DNA of 62,202 nucleotides. It comes from Pseudomonadota bacterium (GTDB lineage: Bacteria; Pseudomonadota; Gammaproteobacteria; SURF-13). The position numbers were made by a program, and so were the translations under genes. The notes under the pieces were generated by a model. That model saw only the letters and a list, made by a program, of their open reading frames with translations, was not told the origin of the DNA and ran no database searches. The number at the start of each line of letters is the position of its first letter. Position 1 is the first letter of the stretch. The stretch lies in contig JAQBXX010000001.1 of assembly GCA_027624315.1 (NCBI GenBank), positions 1 through 62,202 on the forward strand. Direction: 5' to 3'. Positions 25,698-59,814 of this stretch are shown here, piece after piece.

Positions 25698-28121
25698 CTA
25701 AAACAACTGCTCGACGCCGCGCGCTGCGCCCGCGCCGAGGCCGGCACCCAGCGATTCTACCTCATCCGCGGACTTGGGCGGATGTTCGCTGCTGAATACC
25801 TCATTGATGGCCTGGCGGTTGTCGGCACGCGCCAGCGCGCCGGTCGCAGGGTCGATGCGCAGGGTGACGATCCCCGGCGGCGGCTCCGGCAGTTGCTCGG
25901 GACGATCCTTCAGCGCAACCTCCATGAAGCGCATCCAGATGGGCAAGGCGACGTAACCACCCGTCTCCAGATCACCGAGCGGCAGGTGTTTATCGAAGCC
26001 AACCCAGGCCGTAGCGGCGAGCGCGGCGTTAAACCCGCAAAACCAGGCATCGCGCTGGTCATTGGTGGTGCCGGTCTTGCCCGCCAGGTCGCTGCGTCCG
26101 AGCGCGAGCGCACGGCGCGCGGTGCCGGTGCGGATCACATCGCGCATCATGGAGGTCATGAGGTAATCGTTTTCCGCGGTGATCACGCGCAGTGCGGCGC
26201 GTCCCGCGGCACCACCGCGACTTGCGGCGGCGGGGATCGCGGAGGCGGGCGTGGCGCAGTCCATGCAGGCCACTAGCGGATCGGCCTGAAACAGCGTACT
26301 TCCGTCGGGGGCCTCGATGCGCTCGATAAAATACGGCTCCACCTGATAACCGCCATTGGCAAACACGGCAAACCCGCGCACCATTTCCATCGGCGTCGCC
26401 ACCGCGCTGCCGAGTGCCAGCGACAAGCCTTGGGGCAGCCGCTCCGGCCTGAAGCCGAAGCGCGTGGCGTAATCGATGGCGTAGTCGATGCCGATGGCGC
26501 GCAGCACGCGGATCGAGACCAGGTTGCGTGACTGGGCCAGTGCCTCGCGCAGCCGCATCAGGCCGTAGAACTTGCCGCCGAAATTCTCCGGGCGCCAGGC
26601 CTCGCCCAGGTCCGCGCCCTCCACCACGATGGGTGCATCATTGATCAGGCTGGCGGGGGTAAAGCCCTTCTCCAGCGCTGCCGAGTAGAAAAACGGCTTG
26701 AAACTCGACCCCGGCTGGCGGTAGGCCTGCACTACGCGGTTGAAATTGCTTTGATAAAAGTCGAAGCCGCCCGCGAGGGCGATGACCGCGCCGTCGTTCG
26801 GGTTGAGCGCGACCAGCGCGCCCTCCACCGCCGGCAGTTGCGACAGGCCCCACTGCTGGTCCGTTTGAGTGCCGGGCAGCGGCTCGATGCGGACGATGTC
26901 ACCGGGCTTTAAAAACTCCAGTGCAGTCTTCGGCGCCGGGCCGCGATGGTTTGCGTCGATATAGGGCCGCGCCCAGGACAATCCCGCCCACGGCAACTCG
27001 AGCGTTCCGAGCATCGGCTGGAACACGGTGACGCTCTGTACCGCGACCTTGAGCACGAGCGCGGCCTGCACACCGCCTATCTCCGGACTTCCCTCCAGGA
27101 TGCGCGTCCAGTCCTCGGGCTTGAGCAGGGGCGTGAGTTCGATATGGCGTTCCGGCCCGCGGTAACCGTGGCGCTTGTCGTATTCCAGCAGCCCCGCGCG
27201 CAACGCCTGGTTGGCCGCCGGCTGCAACCGGGTATCGAGCGTGGTGTAGACCTTGTAGCCGCCGATGTAGGCGTCTTCGCCGTAACGGTTCACCATCTCC
27301 GCGCGCACCATCTCGGCCACGTGCGGGGCCTCGACCTCGATCTCCAGCGCGTGGCGCTGCGCCGTCTCCGGCTCGGCCAGCGCAGCCTGGTAGTCCGCAG
27401 CGTCAAGGTAGCCCAGCAGGTGCATACGATCGAGCACATAATTGCGGCGCTCGGTGGCACGCTCCAGATTGGCGACGGGATTATATCTGGACGGCGCCTT
27501 GGGCAGGCCTGCGATCATCGCCATCTGCGCCACGCTCAGCTGGTCGACGCCCTTGCCGTAATAAAACTGCGCCGCGGCGGCGATACCGTAAGAGCGGTTG
27601 CCGCAATAGATCTTGTTGAGGTAGAGGGTGAGAATCTCGTCCTTGCTGAATTCACGCTCGATGCGCAGCGCGAGTAGGATCTCCTTGAGTTTGCGCAGAA
27701 AGGTCTTTTCGCTGGACAGGAAATAGTTGCGCGCCACCTGCATGGTGATGGTGCTGCCGCCCTGGCGCTTTTCGCCGGTTTTCACCAGCGCGAGGGCGGC
27801 GCGCAACAGGCCCTGATAGTCGACGCCGGGATGCTGGTAAAAGCGGTCATCCTCTGCGGCCAGCACGGCGTGCACCAGGGGTGCCGGCACCTGGTGGAAC
27901 TCAAGCGGGATACGTCGCATCTCGCCGAACTCGCCAATCAGCCTGGCCTCATGCGTGTAGACACGCAGCGGCACCTGCAGGTGCACATCGCGCAGGCTCT
28001 CGCTCGAGGGGAGCTGCGGTGCAAGATAGAGATAAAGCGCCATCAGCCCGACCGCCAGTAACGTGAGCCCCGCAAACACCGCCGCAAGCGCAAAGCCGAA
28101 TAACTTCAGGAGTGGATTCAT
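25698..28121 (-). CDS. mrcA: Bifunctional penicillin-binding protein 1A
   Basis: 807 aa. Peptidoglycan glycosyltransferase and transpeptidase anchored by one N-terminal membrane segment (LFGFALAAVFAGLTLLAVGLMALYLYL). The GT51 domain has AAEDDRFYQHPGVDYQG and KRQGGSTITMQVARNYFL. An OB-like insert (about 310-420) typical of PBP1a follows. The transpeptidase has GSSFKPFFYSAAL (SxxK), SRN in AQSRNLVSIR and KTGTTNDQRDAWF. The stop is TAG inside a palindrome (GGGCCTGTTAACAGGCCC). Divergent from pilQ as in other gammaproteobacteria, but a repeat element begins five bases before its ATG and no Shine-Dalgarno site is visible. Confidence 0.95.
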   Translation of the reverse strand: MNPLLKLFGFALAAVFAGLTLLAVGLMALYLYLAPQLPSSESLRDVHLQVPLRVYTHEARLIGEFGEMRRIPLEFHQVPAPLVHAVLAAEDDRFYQHPGVDYQGLLRAALALVKTGEKRQGGSTITMQVARNYFLSSEKTFLRKLKEILLALRIEREFSKDEILTLYLNKIYCGNRSYGIAAAAQFYYGKGVDQLSVAQMAMIAGLPKAPSRYNPVANLERATERRNYVLDRMHLLGYLDAADYQAALAEPETAQRHALEIEVEAPHVAEMVRAEMVNRYGEDAYIGGYKVYTTLDTRLQPAANQALRAGLLEYDKRHGYRGPERHIELTPLLKPEDWTRILEGSPEIGGVQAALVLKVAVQSVTVFQPMLGTLELPWAGLSWARPYIDANHRGPAPKTALEFLKPGDIVRIEPLPGTQTDQQWGLSQLPAVEGALVALNPNDGAVIALAGGFDFYQSNFNRVVQAYRQPGSSFKPFFYSAALEKGFTPASLINDAPIVVEGADLGEAWRPENFGGKFYGLMRLREALAQSRNLVSIRVLRAIGIDYAIDYATRFGFRPERLPQGLSLALGSAVATPMEMVRGFAVFANGGYQVEPYFIERIEAPDGSTLFQADPLVACMDCATPASAIPAAASRGGAAGRAALRVITAENDYLMTSMMRDVIRTGTARRALALGRSDLAGKTGTTNDQRDAWFCGFNAALAATAWVGFDKHLPLGDLETGGYVALPIWMRFMEVALKDRPEQLPEPPPGIVTLRIDPATGALARADNRQAINEVFSSEHPPKSADEVESLGAGLGAGAARGVEQLF

Positions 28122-28126
28122 TTTGA

Positions 28127-28280
28127 TTTACTCAGGAGTCACAAAGTAAGGCTGCAATGCTTATGACATGACTCCTGAGTAAATACGCTGTTTTATCTAC
28201 CCCCACCCTGTCCCGCCCCCTAAACAAGGGGCGGGGACGTAGCGGGAAGTGGAGTCTTACTTACTTGACTGTTGAGCAAA
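28127..28280 (+). repeat. Covarying-hairpin GC-core element, copy 1 (ponA-pilQ gap)
   Basis: 15-base hairpin arms TTTACTCAGGAGTCA (28127-28141) and complement (28169-28183). Then comes the invariant segment CTACCCCCACCCTGTCCCG with the GC stem CCCGCCCC...GGGGCGGG (about 28212-28236), and then a 40-base tail ending TGAGCAAA. Same architecture and length (154 bp) as the copies at 47585, 48752 and 59661. Confidence 0.85.
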
Positions 28281-28357
28281 ACGGTACGGCGACAAACTCC
28301 AGCCGCCGGCGGCGCGCAGATGCCAGTATAGACTGCCATCGCGGATTACGAAATATG

Positions 28358-28385
28358 TTGATTTTTTATACTGTTGATCTATAGT
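28358..28385 (+). promoter_or_regulatory. Sigma70-like promoter ahead of the truncated pilQ
   Basis: TTGATT (28358-28363), 16 bases, TATAGT (28380-28385). It lies in the AT-rich stretch that replaces pilMNOP and the 5' part of pilQ, and it could drive aroK, aroB and dgt downstream. Confidence 0.4.
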
Positions 28386-28429
28386 TCGGCCTAGTATTTA
28401 ATGAATTAAGCGATATATGCTACGTAACC

Positions 28430-30163
28430 CTGGAAAGCGCCCCTGACACGGCACTCGCAAAAGGCCCCGCCGCCGCCTCCCCGGCGGCAGGCGCGGGTGC
28501 GTCCCGGCAGGCCCTCAGCAATGTCGACTTCCGCCGCGGCGAGAGCGGCGAAGGCCGTATCCTGGTGACCCTGTCCGACCCCGCCACCGGCGTGGACATC
28601 CGCGAGGAAGGCGGCAAGATACTGGCCGACTTCATGAACAGCAGCATGCCCGAGAATCTGGAGCGGCGCCTCGATGTAACCGATTTCGCCACGCCGGTGA
28701 AGACGGTGGAGACCACCACGCTCGGCAGCCATGCGCGCATGACCATCACGCCGCAAGGTGAGTTCGAGCACCTCGCCTACCAGTCGGGCAATGTGTTCAC
28801 CATAGAAGTGAAGCCGCTCACCAAGGCACAGCAGGAAGTCGCCAAGAAGGACAAGGGTTACACCGGCGAAAAGCTTTCGCTTAATTTCCAGAACATCGAG
28901 GTGCGTGCGGTGCTGCAGTTGATCGCCGATTTCACCGGCCTCAACCTGGTGGCGAGCGACACCGTACAGGGCAGCCTCACCCTGCGCCTGAAGAACGTGC
29001 CGTGGGATCAGGCGCTCGACATCATTTTAAAAACCAAGGGCCTCGCCATGCGCCAGAACGGCAACGTGATCCAGGTGGCGCCGGGCGAAGAGATCGCGGC
29101 GCGTGAAAAACTCGACCTGGAATCACAGAAACAGGTGGCCGAGCTCGCCCCGCTGCGCTCGGAGTTCATCCGCATCAATTTCGCCAAGGCCTCCGACCTC
29201 GCCGCGCTGCTCAAGGCCAAGGAAAATTCGATGCTCTCACCGCGCGGCAATGTCGCGGTCGACGAACGCACCAACACGCTGCTGGTGCAGGACGTGGCGG
29301 ACAAGCTGGCCGAAGTCAGAAAGCTGGTCACCACGCTTGATGTGGCACAGCGCCAGGTGATGATCGAATCGCGCGTGGTGATCGCGGACGACAACTTCAG
29401 CAAGGACCTGGGCGTGAAATTCGGCGTGAGCAAAAACACCAACGCGGATGCTACTGGTGGCGGGATGGTGACGACCGCCGGTACGATCAACGCCACCACC
29501 AACCTGATCAACAACCTCCCCTTCGGCAACTCGAACGACTCCGCGGCGACCACGATCATCCCGACCGACCGGCTCAACGTGAACCTGCCGGTCACCGGCC
29601 CGTCGATCGGCCTGGCCATCGCACGGTTACCGTTTGGCACCCTGCTGGAGCTGGAACTCTCCGCGCTGCAGAAGGAGAAACGCGGCGAGGTCATCTCCAA
29701 TCCGCGCGTGGTCACGGCGAACCAGAAAGAGGCCCTGATAGAACAGGGTGAGGAGATTCCGTATCTGGAGGCGAGCTCGAGCGGCGCCGTCACCGTGTCA
29801 TTCAAGAAGGCCGTGCTCTCGCTTAAGGTAAAGCCGCAGATCACACCGGATAACCACATCATCATGGACATCACGGTGCACAAGGACTCGCGCGGCGAGA
29901 TCGTCGTCCTGGACGGCTCCTCAGTACCCGCCATCGACACCAAGCAGGTCTCCACCCAGGTGCTGGTGGATAACGGCGAAACCATCGTGCTGGGCGGCGT
30001 GTACGAACAGACCACCAGCAAAGACACACAGCGCGTGCCGTTCCTGGGCGATCTGCCCTATATCGGCTTTTTGTTCAAACAGGAGCTCAATATCAACGAC
30101 AAAAACGAACTGCTGATCTTCGTCACGCCCAAGATCCTGGAGGATAACCTGGGCCTGAAATAA
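28430..30163 (+). pseudogene. pilQ: 5'-truncated pilQ, type IV pilus secretin
   Basis: PilQ forms the outer-membrane secretin ring for the type IV pilus. The reading frame is open from 28385, but there is no ATG, GTG or TTG until GTG 28565. Homology begins in the Ala/Pro linker (LAKGPAAASPAAGAGA) followed by the second AMIN domain (SNVDFRRGESGEGRILVTLSDP), the N0/STN domain (KLSLNFQNIEVRAVLQLIADF), one N1 domain and a complete secretin C-domain (VVTANQKEALIEQGEEIPY, VLGGVYEQ, PFLGDLPYIGFLF). The signal peptide and first AMIN domain are missing, about 170-200 residues compared with P. aeruginosa PilQ. pilM, pilN, pilO and pilP, which normally precede it, are also absent. Without a signal peptide the product could not reach the outer membrane. 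Confidence 0.88.
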
Positions 30164-30235: not shown

Positions 30236-30787
30236 ATGACCGCCATCCCACTCAAGCACGGAAATCTGTTCCTGGTCGGCCCGATGGGGGCGGGCAAGAC
30301 CACTGTCGGGCGCGAACTCGCGCGGCGACTGCACCTCACCTTCCACGACAGCGACCATGAAATCGAACGCCGCACCGGCGCCAGCATCCCGCTCATCTTC
30401 GAACTGGAAGGCGAGGCCGGCTTTCGCGCGCGCGAAAAAAACATGATCGCGGAGCTTGTCCGGCACGAGAACGTCGTGCTCGCCACCGGCGGCGGTGCGA
30501 TCCTCGACCCCGCCAACCGCGCCGCGCTTGCCGCGCGCGGTACGGTGATCTATCTGCACGCACCGACCGAGCACCTGCTCCAGCGCATCGGACGTGACAC
30601 GCACCGCCCGCTCATGCAAACGGAAAATCCGCGTGCGCGGCTGGAGCATCTGATGCGGGAACGTGACCCGCTCTATCGCGCGATCGCCGATCTTGTGATC
30701 GAAACCCATCGCCGCCGTACACCGAGCGTGGTGAATGAAATCCTGCGCCATCTCAAGACACGACCCGTACCGATTGGCGTACAATAA
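30236..30787 (+). CDS. aroK: Shikimate kinase
   Basis: 183 aa. Phosphorylates shikimate at O3 with ATP in the chorismate pathway. Walker [15 protein letters not shown], shikimate-binding [12 protein letters not shown] and ATGGGAIL, and the lid region [11 protein letters not shown] are all present. Normal length for AroK (about 175). It lies between pilQ and aroB as in most gammaproteobacteria and is likely co-transcribed with aroB (24 bases). Confidence 0.95.
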
Positions 30788-30811: not shown

Positions 30812-31915
30812 ATGCCCACGCTGCAACTTGATCTCGGACCGCGCAGTTACCCGATCTGCATCGGCCCCGGCCTGCTGGGCCGCAGCGACGTCATCGCGCC
30901 CCACATCGCCGGCAAACAGGTGATGGTGGTGAGCAATGAAACGGTCGCGCCTTTATATCTCGACAAGACGCTGGCTGCGCTAACGGGCTTTCATTGCGAT
31001 TCGGTGATTCTTCCCGACGGCGAAAAATACAAAACCATGGATACGCTCAACACGATCTTCACTGCGCTGCTCGGTAAGCGTCACGACCGCAGCACGACGC
31101 TGGTGGCCCTCGGCGGCGGCGTAATCGGCGACCTCGCCGGCTTTGCCGCGGCGTGCTATCAGCGTGGCGTGAATTTCATCCAGATTCCGACCACGCTGCT
31201 GGCGCAGGTGGATTCCTCCGTCGGCGGCAAGACCGGAGTGAATCATCCACTGGGCAAGAACATGATCGGCGCGTTTTACCAGCCACGCTGTGTGATCGCA
31301 GACACCGATACGCTGAACACGCTGCCGGAGCGCGAACTCGGCGCCGGTATCGCCGAGGTGATCAAATACGGCCTCATCCGCGATCATGAATTTTTCGTCT
31401 GGCTGGAAAAGAATATCGAGGCCTTGCGCGCGCGCGAACCCGCCGCGCTTGCCTTCGCCATCGAGCGCTCGTGCCGCAACAAGGCGGATGTAGTGGCGCG
31501 CGATGAGCGTGAAAGCGGCGAGCGCGCGCTGCTCAATTTCGGCCACACCTTCGGCCACGCCATCGAGACCGGCCTCGGTTACGGCACCTGGCTGCACGGC
31601 GAGGCGATTGGCGCCGGCATGGCGCTGGCCGCCGATCTCTCCTGCCGTCTCGGCTGGATTTCCGCATCCGACCGGCAGCGTATCGAGGCCTTGCTGGTAC
31701 GCGCGCACCTGCCCGTGCGCGCGCCCGCGCAGATCGGCAGCGAGCAGTTTCTCGACCTCATGGCGGTGGACAAAAAGGTGAGCGGCGGCAAACTGCGCTT
31801 GATTCTGCTCAAGGGCATCGGCCAGGCCGTCATCAGCGCGGACTTCGATGCGCAGCTCCTGCGCGCCACGCTGGACACCTGTCGCAGCGCGCAACCGCTC
31901 CCCGCACCTGCATGA
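30812..31915 (+). CDS. aroB: 3-dehydroquinate synthase
   Basis: 367 aa. Converts DAHP to 3-dehydroquinate with NAD and a divalent metal. Seen: NAD loop [21 protein letters not shown], catalytic [21 protein letters not shown], metal-binding Glu in [13 protein letters not shown] and His in [13 protein letters not shown] and [11 protein letters not shown]. Full length. Its stop overlaps the start of the dgt-like gene (ATGA). Confidence 0.96.
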
Positions 31916-46602: not shown

Positions 46603-47539
46603 TCAGGCATGATCCCCTGAAAAATCGCAGGTGAGTGTCTCACCCGGTTTCTGGAAGTAATAGCCCTGCGCATAATCGAGACCGTACTGCCATAACAGTG
46701 CAAGCGTCGCGGCGTCCTCCACACATTCGGCCACCGTAGCGATCTTCGCCACGCGCGCGGTTTCATGGACCAGCTTGACCATCTCCTGATTCTCGGGCTT
46801 GGCGGCAAGGCCCGGCATAAGAGAGCCGTTGATCTTGAGATAGTCGATCGGGAGATGCTTGAGATAGGCCAAGGTTGCAGGCCCGCTGCCTGAAGGCGAG
46901 TGGTTGAGCACGAAGCGGCAGCGCAGTTCCTTCAAGCCGTTGACGAATTCCTTCGCCTCCCTGAGATTGTCCGCTGCGGAGGCCTCGCGCACCTCGAAGA
47001 TCAGGCCATCACCCGCCAGGCGCACCGCCTTGATGGCTTCGCTGATCCAGGGCAGCAGCGTCTTGTCCGTCATCGTATCCACAAACAGCTTCGTGCGAGC
47101 TGTCGAGCAGCAGGCGATTGCGTTTTTCCGTTTCACGCAGTGACGCCTCACACATGCGATGGGCACGGCGCAGATCGAGATCGGAAAGTTCGCGTATCAG
47201 CGCAAGCTGCAGACGCTCGGCCTGATCCTTCTGCACCATGTCACGCGCCCCATTGCGCAGCGCCTCCAGTGCAGGGCCATGGTCTTCATTGCCGCCGGTG
47301 ACGACGATGAGCGGGACATCCATGCCGGACTCCAGTATCCGCGCGAGCACCTGCTGTACATCCATCTCCGCGAGTCTCGGCACGCTCACGATAAGGTCGA
47401 GCGTCTGGCCTGCGATCGCCGCCTCCACCTCGTCCTGTGTTTCTACGCGCGCGACGCGCACACTGTAACCTGCGCGGCGCAGCAGATTGGCCATCATCTC
47501 GGCATCGTCGGAGGAGTCATCGACGATGAGTAAACGCAC
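46603..47539 (-). pseudogene. FimX-like receiver-EAL gene broken by internal deletion and frameshift
   Basis: From GTG 47539 the first frame encodes a receiver domain (MRLLIVDDSSDDAEMMANLL) that lacks the phospho-acceptor Asp (LDLIVSVPRL), then RETEKRNRLLLDSSHEA, the usual entry to a PAS domain. At about 47085-47095 the reading shifts frame and continues with KLFVDTMTDKTLLPW and the C-terminal half of an EAL domain (GLIFEVRE, LPIDYLKINGSLMPGL, AECVEDAATLALLWQYG, AQGYYFQKPGE), ending TGA. The PAS, GGDEF and first half of EAL are missing. A receiver without its Asp plus this EAL type matches P. aeruginosa FimX, a type IV pilus c-di-GMP effector. FimX identity is likely, not proven. Confidence 0.72.
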
Positions 47540-47584
47540 TGTGTTTTATTTCTTCATCAAACTATTCACGCACCCAAAAAGGGT

Positions 47585-47734
47585 ATTGCTAATGAGTTCA
47601 TTGTTAAGGCTACACTATCCTGTACGTTCCCGCCCCCTGTTTAGGGGGCGGGACAGGGTGGGGGTAGAGCAAACACGGCATCACTCAGGAGACACGATTA
47701 ATGACGACACGTCATTAATCGTGTCTCCTGAGTG
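47585..47734 (-). repeat. Covarying-hairpin GC-core element, copy 2 (minus orientation)
   Basis: Read on the minus strand: perfect 25-base palindrome arms (47682-47706 and 47710-47734, three-base loop, outer part CACTCAGGAG/CTCCTGAGTG), then CTACCCCCACCCTGTCCCG and the GC stem (about 47629-47652), then the tail GTGTAGCC..AACAATGAACTCATTAGC. It lies nine bases after the epmB stop and ahead of the FimX-like gene. Confidence 0.85.
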
Positions 47735-48751: not shown

Positions 48752-48905
48752 TTGCCAAGGAGTCATAAGACAGAGAGGGATTTATTATTTTGTGACTCCT
48801 TGGCAAAATACTGTTTTCCCCTACCCCCACCCTATCCCGCCCCCTAAACAGGGGGCGGGGACGTGTCGTAAAGTGTAGACTTGGCAATGAATTTATCAGT
48901 AAATT
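48752..48905 (+). repeat. Covarying-hairpin GC-core element, copy 3 (epmB-efp gap)
   Basis: Arms TTGCCAAGGAGTCA (48752-48765) and complement (48793-48806). Compared with copies 1, 2 and 4 the outer bases of both arms have changed together (ACTC/GAGT to GCCA/TGGC), preserving pairing. Invariant CTACCCCCACCCTATCCCG and GC stem follow, then a 40-base tail ending CAGTAAAT. It occupies nearly the whole 190-base epmB-efp divergence. Confidence 0.85.
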
Positions 48906-48941
48906 TTTCAACGTAAATATCACGCAGAGGCAAAAGACACG

Positions 48942-49511
48942 ATGGCTACCTTCAGTACCAATGAATTCAAAAGCGGTCTCAAAGTGATGCTGGACAATGA
49001 CCCTTGCGCCATCGTCGAAAATGAATTTGTAAAACCCGGCAAGGGGCAGGCCTTCAACCGCGTCAAGATACGCAACCTGAAAACCGGGCGCGTGATCGAG
49101 CGCACCTTCAAATCCGGCGACACCATGGAAGGGGCGGACATCATCGATACCGCCATGCAGTATCTTTATACCGACGGCCAGTTCTGGCACTTCATGGTTC
49201 CTGACACCTTTGAACAGCACATTGCGGATAGTAACGCAGTCGCCGACGCAAAAAAATGGCTCAAGGAACAGGATGTCTGCACCGTTACGCTCTGGAACGG
49301 GCAACCGCTGTTTGTCACTCCTCCCAACTTTGTCACGCTCCGGGTGACCGACACCGACCCCGGCCTGCGCGGCGATACCTCCGGCGGCGGCGGCAAGCCC
49401 GCCACGCTCGAAACCGGCGCCGTGGTACGGGTGCCGTTGTTCATCGAGGTGGGCGAGCTGCTCAAGGTGGACACGCGCACCGGCGAGTATGTGTCGCGCG
49501 TCAAAGAATAG
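48942..49511 (+). CDS. efp: Translation elongation factor P
   Basis: 189 aa. Binds stalled ribosomes between P and E sites and relieves polyproline arrest. KOW-like domain I with the beta-lysylated lysine in [13 protein letters not shown] (K34 equivalent), OB domains II and III, and the C-terminal GEYVSRVKE. The stop is TAG and the C-terminus is as in E. coli, so TAG is a normal stop in this genome. AGAGG ribosome site upstream. The modifying enzymes EpmB and EpmA flank it. Confidence 0.97.
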
Positions 49512-49572
49512 CTTCGTTACGGCTGGGTGTAGCCTTAATTGACCCACTTACTCACGTTAGGATGAAAAATGC

Positions 49573-49629
49573 TCAACGCCAAGACGCAGAGATTTTTATT
49601 TTCTTAGCGTCTTTGCGACTTTGCGTTGA
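49573..49629. repeat. Degenerate copy of the CTTTGCG inverted repeat
   Basis: Left arm TCAACGCCAAGACGCAGAG and right arm CTTTGCGACTTTGCGTTGA resemble the perfect repeat at 45118-45190 with several mismatches. Lies between efp and epmA. Confidence 0.65.
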
Positions 49630-49657
49630 GATTTTAGTAATTTAGTAATAGCACCCA

Positions 49658-50665
49658 TTGAAATCCTCGTCCGCCTGGAAACCCGCCGCCACACTTGAGA
49701 CCCTGCGTCTGCGGGCGCGGCTGCTCGCCGCGATCCGGGAATTTTTCGCAACGCGCGGCGTGCTCGAGGTGGACACGCCGGTGCTCTCGCATGCGGCGAG
49801 CACCGACCCGCAATTGCACAGCTTCACCACACACTACAGCGGCCCGGATGCGCCGGATGGGGCGCCGCTGTTTCTGCACACCTCGCCGGAATTTCCCATG
49901 AAACGCCTGCTCGCAGCGGGCAGCGGGCCGATTTACCAGATCGGCAAAGTGTTCCGCAACGGCGAATGCGGGCGCTGGCACAACCCTGAATTCACCCTGC
50001 TCGAGTGGTACCGCCCCGGCTTCGATCACCATGCGCTGATGGACGAGGTCGAGGCGCTGGTGACCGGTCTGCTCGATAGCGGGCTGAAGCAGCCGGCAGC
50101 AAGTGAACGCTTGAGTTACGGCGCGCTGTTCCTGCGCCACACCGGCATTGACCCCCACACCGCCAGCGCCGCCGATCTCAGGGAGTGCGCGCGCGCGCAC
50201 GGCGTGGGCGAAGTGCCGGGCCTCACGCTCGATGAGCGCGATGCCTGGCTCGACCTGCTGCTCACCCATACCGTGATCCCGTGCATGGAACCGCAGCGCC
50301 TGTATTTTGTGTACGACTATCCGGCCTCGCAGGCGGCGCTCGCGCGCATCCGCCCGCCCTCTCCCGGTCAGGCCTGCGCGCTGGCAGAACGCTTCGAGCT
50401 GTTCATCAACGGCATTGAGCTTGCCAATGGATTTCATGAGCTGGCTGACAGCGCCGAACAGCGCCGCCGCTTCGAGCGGGATAACGCACGGCGGCAAACG
50501 CAAGGGCTGCCGACTATGCCCCTCGACGAGCCTCTGCTCGCAGCACTCGATCACGGCCTGCCACCGTGTGCCGGCGTCGCGCTCGGCGTTGACCGGCTAC
50601 TAATGCTCGCCGCCGGCGCCGGCACCATCAGTGAGACCCTCGCCTTCCCCTTTGATCGCGCCTGA
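49658..50665 (+). CDS. epmA: EF-P lysyl-transferase EpmA (GenX/PoxA)
   Basis: 335 aa lysyl-tRNA-synthetase paralogue lacking the anticodon domain; it ligates R-beta-lysine to EF-P. Class II motifs: motif 2 FRNGECGRWHNPEFTLLEWYR, motif 3 GVALGVDRLLMLAAG, and ELANGFHELAD. Start is TTG 49658 (KSSSAWKPAATLETLRLRARL), the only start that gives the whole N-terminus; no good ribosome site is seen. Follows efp after a repeat. Confidence 0.94.
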   Translation: MKSSSAWKPAATLETLRLRARLLAAIREFFATRGVLEVDTPVLSHAASTDPQLHSFTTHYSGPDAPDGAPLFLHTSPEFPMKRLLAAGSGPIYQIGKVFRNGECGRWHNPEFTLLEWYRPGFDHHALMDEVEALVTGLLDSGLKQPAASERLSYGALFLRHTGIDPHTASAADLRECARAHGVGEVPGLTLDERDAWLDLLLTHTVIPCMEPQRLYFVYDYPASQAALARIRPPSPGQACALAERFELFINGIELANGFHELADSAEQRRRFERDNARRQTQGLPTMPLDEPLLAALDHGLPPCAGVALGVDRLLMLAAGAGTISETLAFPFDRA

Positions 50666-59660: not shown

Positions 59661-59814
59661 CTTACTCAGGAGCCACGACACAGACTACACAGCTGACTGA
59701 ATAACTCCTGAGTAAGCACCCCGTTTCACTTACCCCCACCCTGTCCCGCCCCCTGAACAAGGGGCGGGAACGTGTCGGAGAGTGTCGCCTTGATAATGAA
59801 CTCATGAGTAAACT
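59661..59814 (+). repeat. Covarying-hairpin GC-core element, copy 4 (hpf-ptsN gap)
   Basis: Arms CTTACTCAGGAG (59661-59672) and complement (59705-59716), invariant TTACCCCCACCCTGTCCCG with the GC stem, then a tail ATAATGAACTCATGAGTAAA whose last eight bases complement the outer left arm (TTTACTCA). 154 bp, the same length as copies 1 and 3. It interrupts the rpoN-hpf-ptsN operon. Confidence 0.85.

Follow-up and report, generated by a model that had tools for sequence, protein, structure and literature searches.

We asked what has become of pilM, pilN, pilO, pilP and the head of pilQ in a gammaproteobacterial genome (G000) that keeps only a truncated pilQ at its type IVa pilus (T4aP) secretin locus. 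The arrangement ponA / pilMNOPQ-aroK-aroB has been described for T4aP secretin loci and is conserved in gammaproteobacteria (PMC7545093), and pilMNOP was present at 66 of 66 GTDB loci in which 4.2 kb or more of sequence precedes pilQ. Relative to the locus described for gammaproteobacteria (PMC7545093), G000 retains the flanking genes in unchanged orientation, a secretin of the PilQ family and the native pilM upstream region, but has lost pilM, N, O and P together with the 5' portion of pilQ (Table 1).

The window analysed here is a stretch of 62,202 nt, bases 1-62202 of contig C15 (129,269 bp) in G000, a 1,426,021-bp draft of 53 contigs that is rated at 100% completeness and 0.38% contamination and is apparently a metagenome-assembled genome. 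The comparison set consisted of two genomes of the same genus, G001 (1.9 Mb) and G002 (1.7 Mb; in GTDB release 220 a metagenome-assembled gammaproteobacterium, contig JAURVQ010000003.1), plus three genomes of the same family. Each species was represented by one genome.

Table 1 Features of the ponA-aroB region (window coordinates).
Feature	Position	Strand	Evidence or remark
ponA (penicillin-binding protein 1A), intact, divergent left flank	25698..28121	-	Pfam Transgly, Transpeptidase, PCB_OB
Dispersed repeat copy (~150 bp) between ponA and pilM promoter region	about 28131..28283	.	Not at deletion join
Native pilM upstream region	28284..28429	+	Alignment to G002 and G001; promoter scan
Deletion join, ~3.3 kb missing	28427..28430	+	3-bp ACC common to pilM-upstream side and pilQ side
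Headless pilQ remnant	28430..30163	+	Last strand of AMIN1, AMIN2, N0/STN, Secretin_N, secretin domain
aroK (shikimate kinase), intact	30236..30787	+	Pfam SKI
aroB (3-dehydroquinate synthase by position and homology), intact	30812..31915	+	367-aa ORF, aligned with relatives

The locus in G001 had the standard layout, a divergent ponA followed by pilM-N-O-P-Q-aroK-aroB with pilM-N-O-P-Q complete, and ponA of the window aligned with G002 contig C118 at 93.7%. Compared with these two relatives, G000 carried one deletion of ~3.3 kb. It begins 24 bp ahead of the start codon of pilM, reaches the last strand, or end, of the pilQ AMIN1 domain and removes pilM, pilN, pilO, pilP and the start, signal peptide and AMIN1 of pilQ (the first ~133 pilQ codons). 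Measured against G001 the missing segment was about 3,284 bp, inside the 3-4 kb of the original prediction, and the comparison with both same-genus genomes supported its claim that pilMNOP and the pilQ head had been deleted and aroK/aroB spared. The G002 sequence reads GTAACC/ACGG on the pilM side of the join (more fully GTAACC/ACGGATATC...GTG, where GTG is the pilM start and the slash marks the join) and CTCACC/TTGG on the pilQ side (CTCACC/TTGGAAAGCG), and G000 reads GTAACC/CTGGAAAGCG across it. On the basis of comparing these three sequences, we placed the join in the common ACC at 28427-28429; the junction had been put at about 28290-28430, and the actual join is confined to 28427-28430.

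The AT-rich stretch earlier taken for the junction itself (28350-28429, 70% AT) proved instead to be native, the promoter region of pilM, and it is conserved in G001 and G002. The spacer between ponA and pilM in G002 matched window positions 28283-28429 at 88.5% over 148 bp, G001 matched 28324-28403 at 84% over 81 bp, and a promoter scan returned a candidate sigma-70-like element, TTGATT-16-TATAGT, at 28358-28385 within this native upstream region. Conservation of the AT-rich stretch in G002 and G001 ruled out foreign filler, and native pilM upstream sequence runs right up to the join. The dispersed repeat, whose first copy had been assigned a role at the junction, turned out to have inserted separately, about 146 bp from the join; with native sequence lying between repeat and join, we ruled it out as the cause of the deletion. 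G002 lacks it at this spot and has the two flanks directly joined, so that relative to G002 the copy is a clean insertion. About 40 copies, several of them at contig ends, were found in the 1.43-Mb genome, and those in the window lie at 28131-28283, 48773-48882, 59682-59791 and, inverted, 47586-47675; this ~150-bp repeat resembles a small MITE-like mobile element.

The frame of the pilQ remnant was open from 28385 to 30163 (592 codons), contained no ATG, GTG or TTG before the GTG at 28565 and encoded no signal peptide, so that frame and translation confirmed the original description on all these points. Pfam searches of the frame found a single AMIN domain (frame residues 46-146) followed by STN, Secretin_N and Secretin, and the PilQ model TIGR02515 scored 531 bits against a cut-off of 284. 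The remnant is thus recognizable as PilQ by its Secretin, N0/STN and Secretin_N domains and by the subfamily model, and is without the start codon and signal peptide of one. Its homology to PilQ begins at residue ~133, and the orthologous frames at the same locus are 745 aa in G001 and 724 aa in G002, which bears out the claim of a pilQ without its head; the part that is left is 93% identical to G002 PilQ.

The original prediction had further proposed looking elsewhere in the genome for pilMNOP, a second pilQ, pilBCTD and pilA. A concatenated query of PilM, PilN, PilO, PilP and the PilQ N-terminus from G001 gave 0 matches in G000 and multiple matches in 5 of the 5 other genomes, profile searches of G000 for PilM, PilO and PilN returned nothing over the cut-off, and the remnant was the sole secretin match in the 1.43-Mb draft, with no second PilQ or other secretin. 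On these negative query, profile and secretin searches we rejected a second pilMNOP or secretin elsewhere in G000, a genome in which the alignment complex of a functional T4aP (pilM, N, O and P) is absent.

The same look through the genome found most of the remaining pilus core broken. In G000, pilT (contig C22) contained an in-frame TAG stop, pilC (contig C20) had -1 and +1 frameshifts and four stops in continuous reading, and pilB had a +1 frameshift near its 3' end that replaced the last ~26 codons; the copies of pilT, pilC, pilB, pilU and pilD in G001 and G002 were all intact. Both pilU and pilD were intact or open in G000, the PilD frame being colinear with that of G002, and open frames were also found for comEC, for a cluster of minor pilins on C38 and, near 69.4-69.9 kb of C15, for a PilA-like gene. 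Pilus decay in this genome is therefore partial: the pilins and prepilin peptidase of a functional T4aP are there and intact pilB, pilC and pilT are not, with pilins, pilU, pilD and comEC still open. PilY1 had no match in the whole genus and was uninformative. A fragment of a second T2SSE-type ATPase was observed at C30:30362-30601 (locus L085), where it ends at the contig end.

Controls were conserved ORFs sampled in the surroundings of the pil loci, and 88 of the 96 distinct places sampled (about 170 kb of G000) were without a stop. The eight with a stop included pilC and pilT; the other six were over-long ORF starts (ribD, bamC), CorA, or ORFs without a Pfam domain, and among these six a stop fell inside a Pfam domain in CorA alone, 8 codons from the end. 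First flags of ribD, argH and bamC as broken controls were traced to over-long ORF starts and dismissed; the bamC-like G002 ORF was named from reading its sequence. Clean control genes ruled out random sequencing error as the source of the pil lesions. Outside the pilus genes, a response-regulator/PAS/GGDEF-EAL gene at window positions 46612-47557 (-), which is full length at 695 aa in G001, had lost its middle (about residues 165-533) and is another, non-T4P pseudogene. In G000, an ORF of unknown family at 48923-49803 (-) was broken by a stop and a change of frame; in G001 it is 248 aa and 89% identical over the larger part.

We further compared nonsynonymous and synonymous changes (N:S), polarised with G001, on the G000 and G002 branches by Fisher test. 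For pilQ, pilB, pilC and pilT together the counts were 72:112 on the G000 branch versus 41:119 on the G002 branch (p = 0.008), whereas eleven control genes gave 126:207 versus 119:203 (p = 0.87); for pilQ alone they were 25:29 versus 9:36 (p = 0.01). The excess rests on few changes and is absent in pilT alone. The excess of amino-acid change on the affected branch that marks relaxed selection was thus found, at modest counts.

These cumulative results make it very probable that the locus is a decayed T4aP locus, produced by recent, stepwise loss of the pilus. An artefact, with a misassembled or chimaeric join and frameshifts due to sequencing error, is improbable. G000 is a draft in 53 contigs, the ~40-copy, ~150-bp repeat with several copies at contig ends lies 146 bp from the join, and contig breaks fall inside or beside pilP in both G002 and G003; however, an assembler would need a longer overlap than the 3 bp common at the join, synteny with G002 continues through the repeat, no pilMNOP copy occurs on any other G000 contig, lesions cluster in T4P genes with nearly all of the other conserved ORFs sampled being clean, and an indel-type error would not produce the in-frame stop seen in pilT. 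Misassembly is excluded only by argument: the join contains no repeat, and the decay of pil genes unlinked to it agrees with the deletion.

Polymorphism is a somewhat more serious alternative, though still unlikely: the deletion may occur in part of the population and the assembly may have followed that variant, a situation compatible with the preferred reading, though the loss would then not be fixed. Such drafts are, as a rule, composites of a population, and the breaks in or next to pilP (G002 contig ends C118 and C76, and G003 contigs C41 and C46; loci L168, L036 and L038) could be chance or could reflect mixed variants coexisting in the sampled populations, but the other pil lesions, on different contigs, fit a pilus-less lineage. 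Least credible is a short PilQ made from a non-standard start that still works, with the functions of pilMNOP supplied otherwise. The frame is open for 592 codons, the promoter region is intact, and secretins without AMIN domains exist (PMC7545093), yet the frame offers no ATG, GTG or TTG before 28565 and no signal peptide, PilM/N/O/P were not found in G000, pilC is broken, and amino-acid change in pilQ was higher on the G000 branch (25:29 versus 9:36, p = 0.01). We likewise give almost no credence to a headless PilQ made from an unusual start for a function independent of PilMNOP and of export through a signal peptide of its own.

Under the preferred reading, recent and stepwise loss of the pilus, the deletion may have arisen by short-homology end joining or replication slippage. 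Missing its alignment complex and an exportable secretin, the T4aP could presumably not be built, and selection on pilus function would have ended recently in a lineage for which the pilus has become dispensable. Since the promoter and both genes were kept, aroK and aroB may be transcribed through the remnant; the old pilM promoter would now read through it into aroK-aroB, and the deletion may have been tolerated because of this read-through. In Acinetobacter baylyi, both aroK and aroB appear on the list of essential genes (PMC5542475).

Comparable decay has been described elsewhere. Francisella tularensis type B strains carry a pilT pseudogene caused by a stop codon (PMC2941502), as G000 does, but G000 is also hit in pilMNOPQ, pilC and pilB and belongs to an unrelated lineage with no known host. 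Reduced Endomicrobium genomes show pilus-gene decay (PMC8809381) that resembles the present case in its many pilus-region pseudogenes, in the retained prepilin peptidase and pilins and in the reduced genomes, but there it concerns a Tad-type pilus in endosymbionts, in contrast to the type IVa pilus of G000. The pilus loss in G000 is ordinary gene decay caught early, and to a specialist it is tidy rather than surprising. With intact same-genus relatives as controls, G000 documents type IV pilus loss in a gammaproteobacterium of reduced genome at one stage, at which the alignment complex and secretin head are deleted, pilC, pilT and pilB are broken, and pilins, pilU, pilD and comEC are open. Read-through into aroK-aroB may, as this case suggests, restrict the positions at which such deletions can end.
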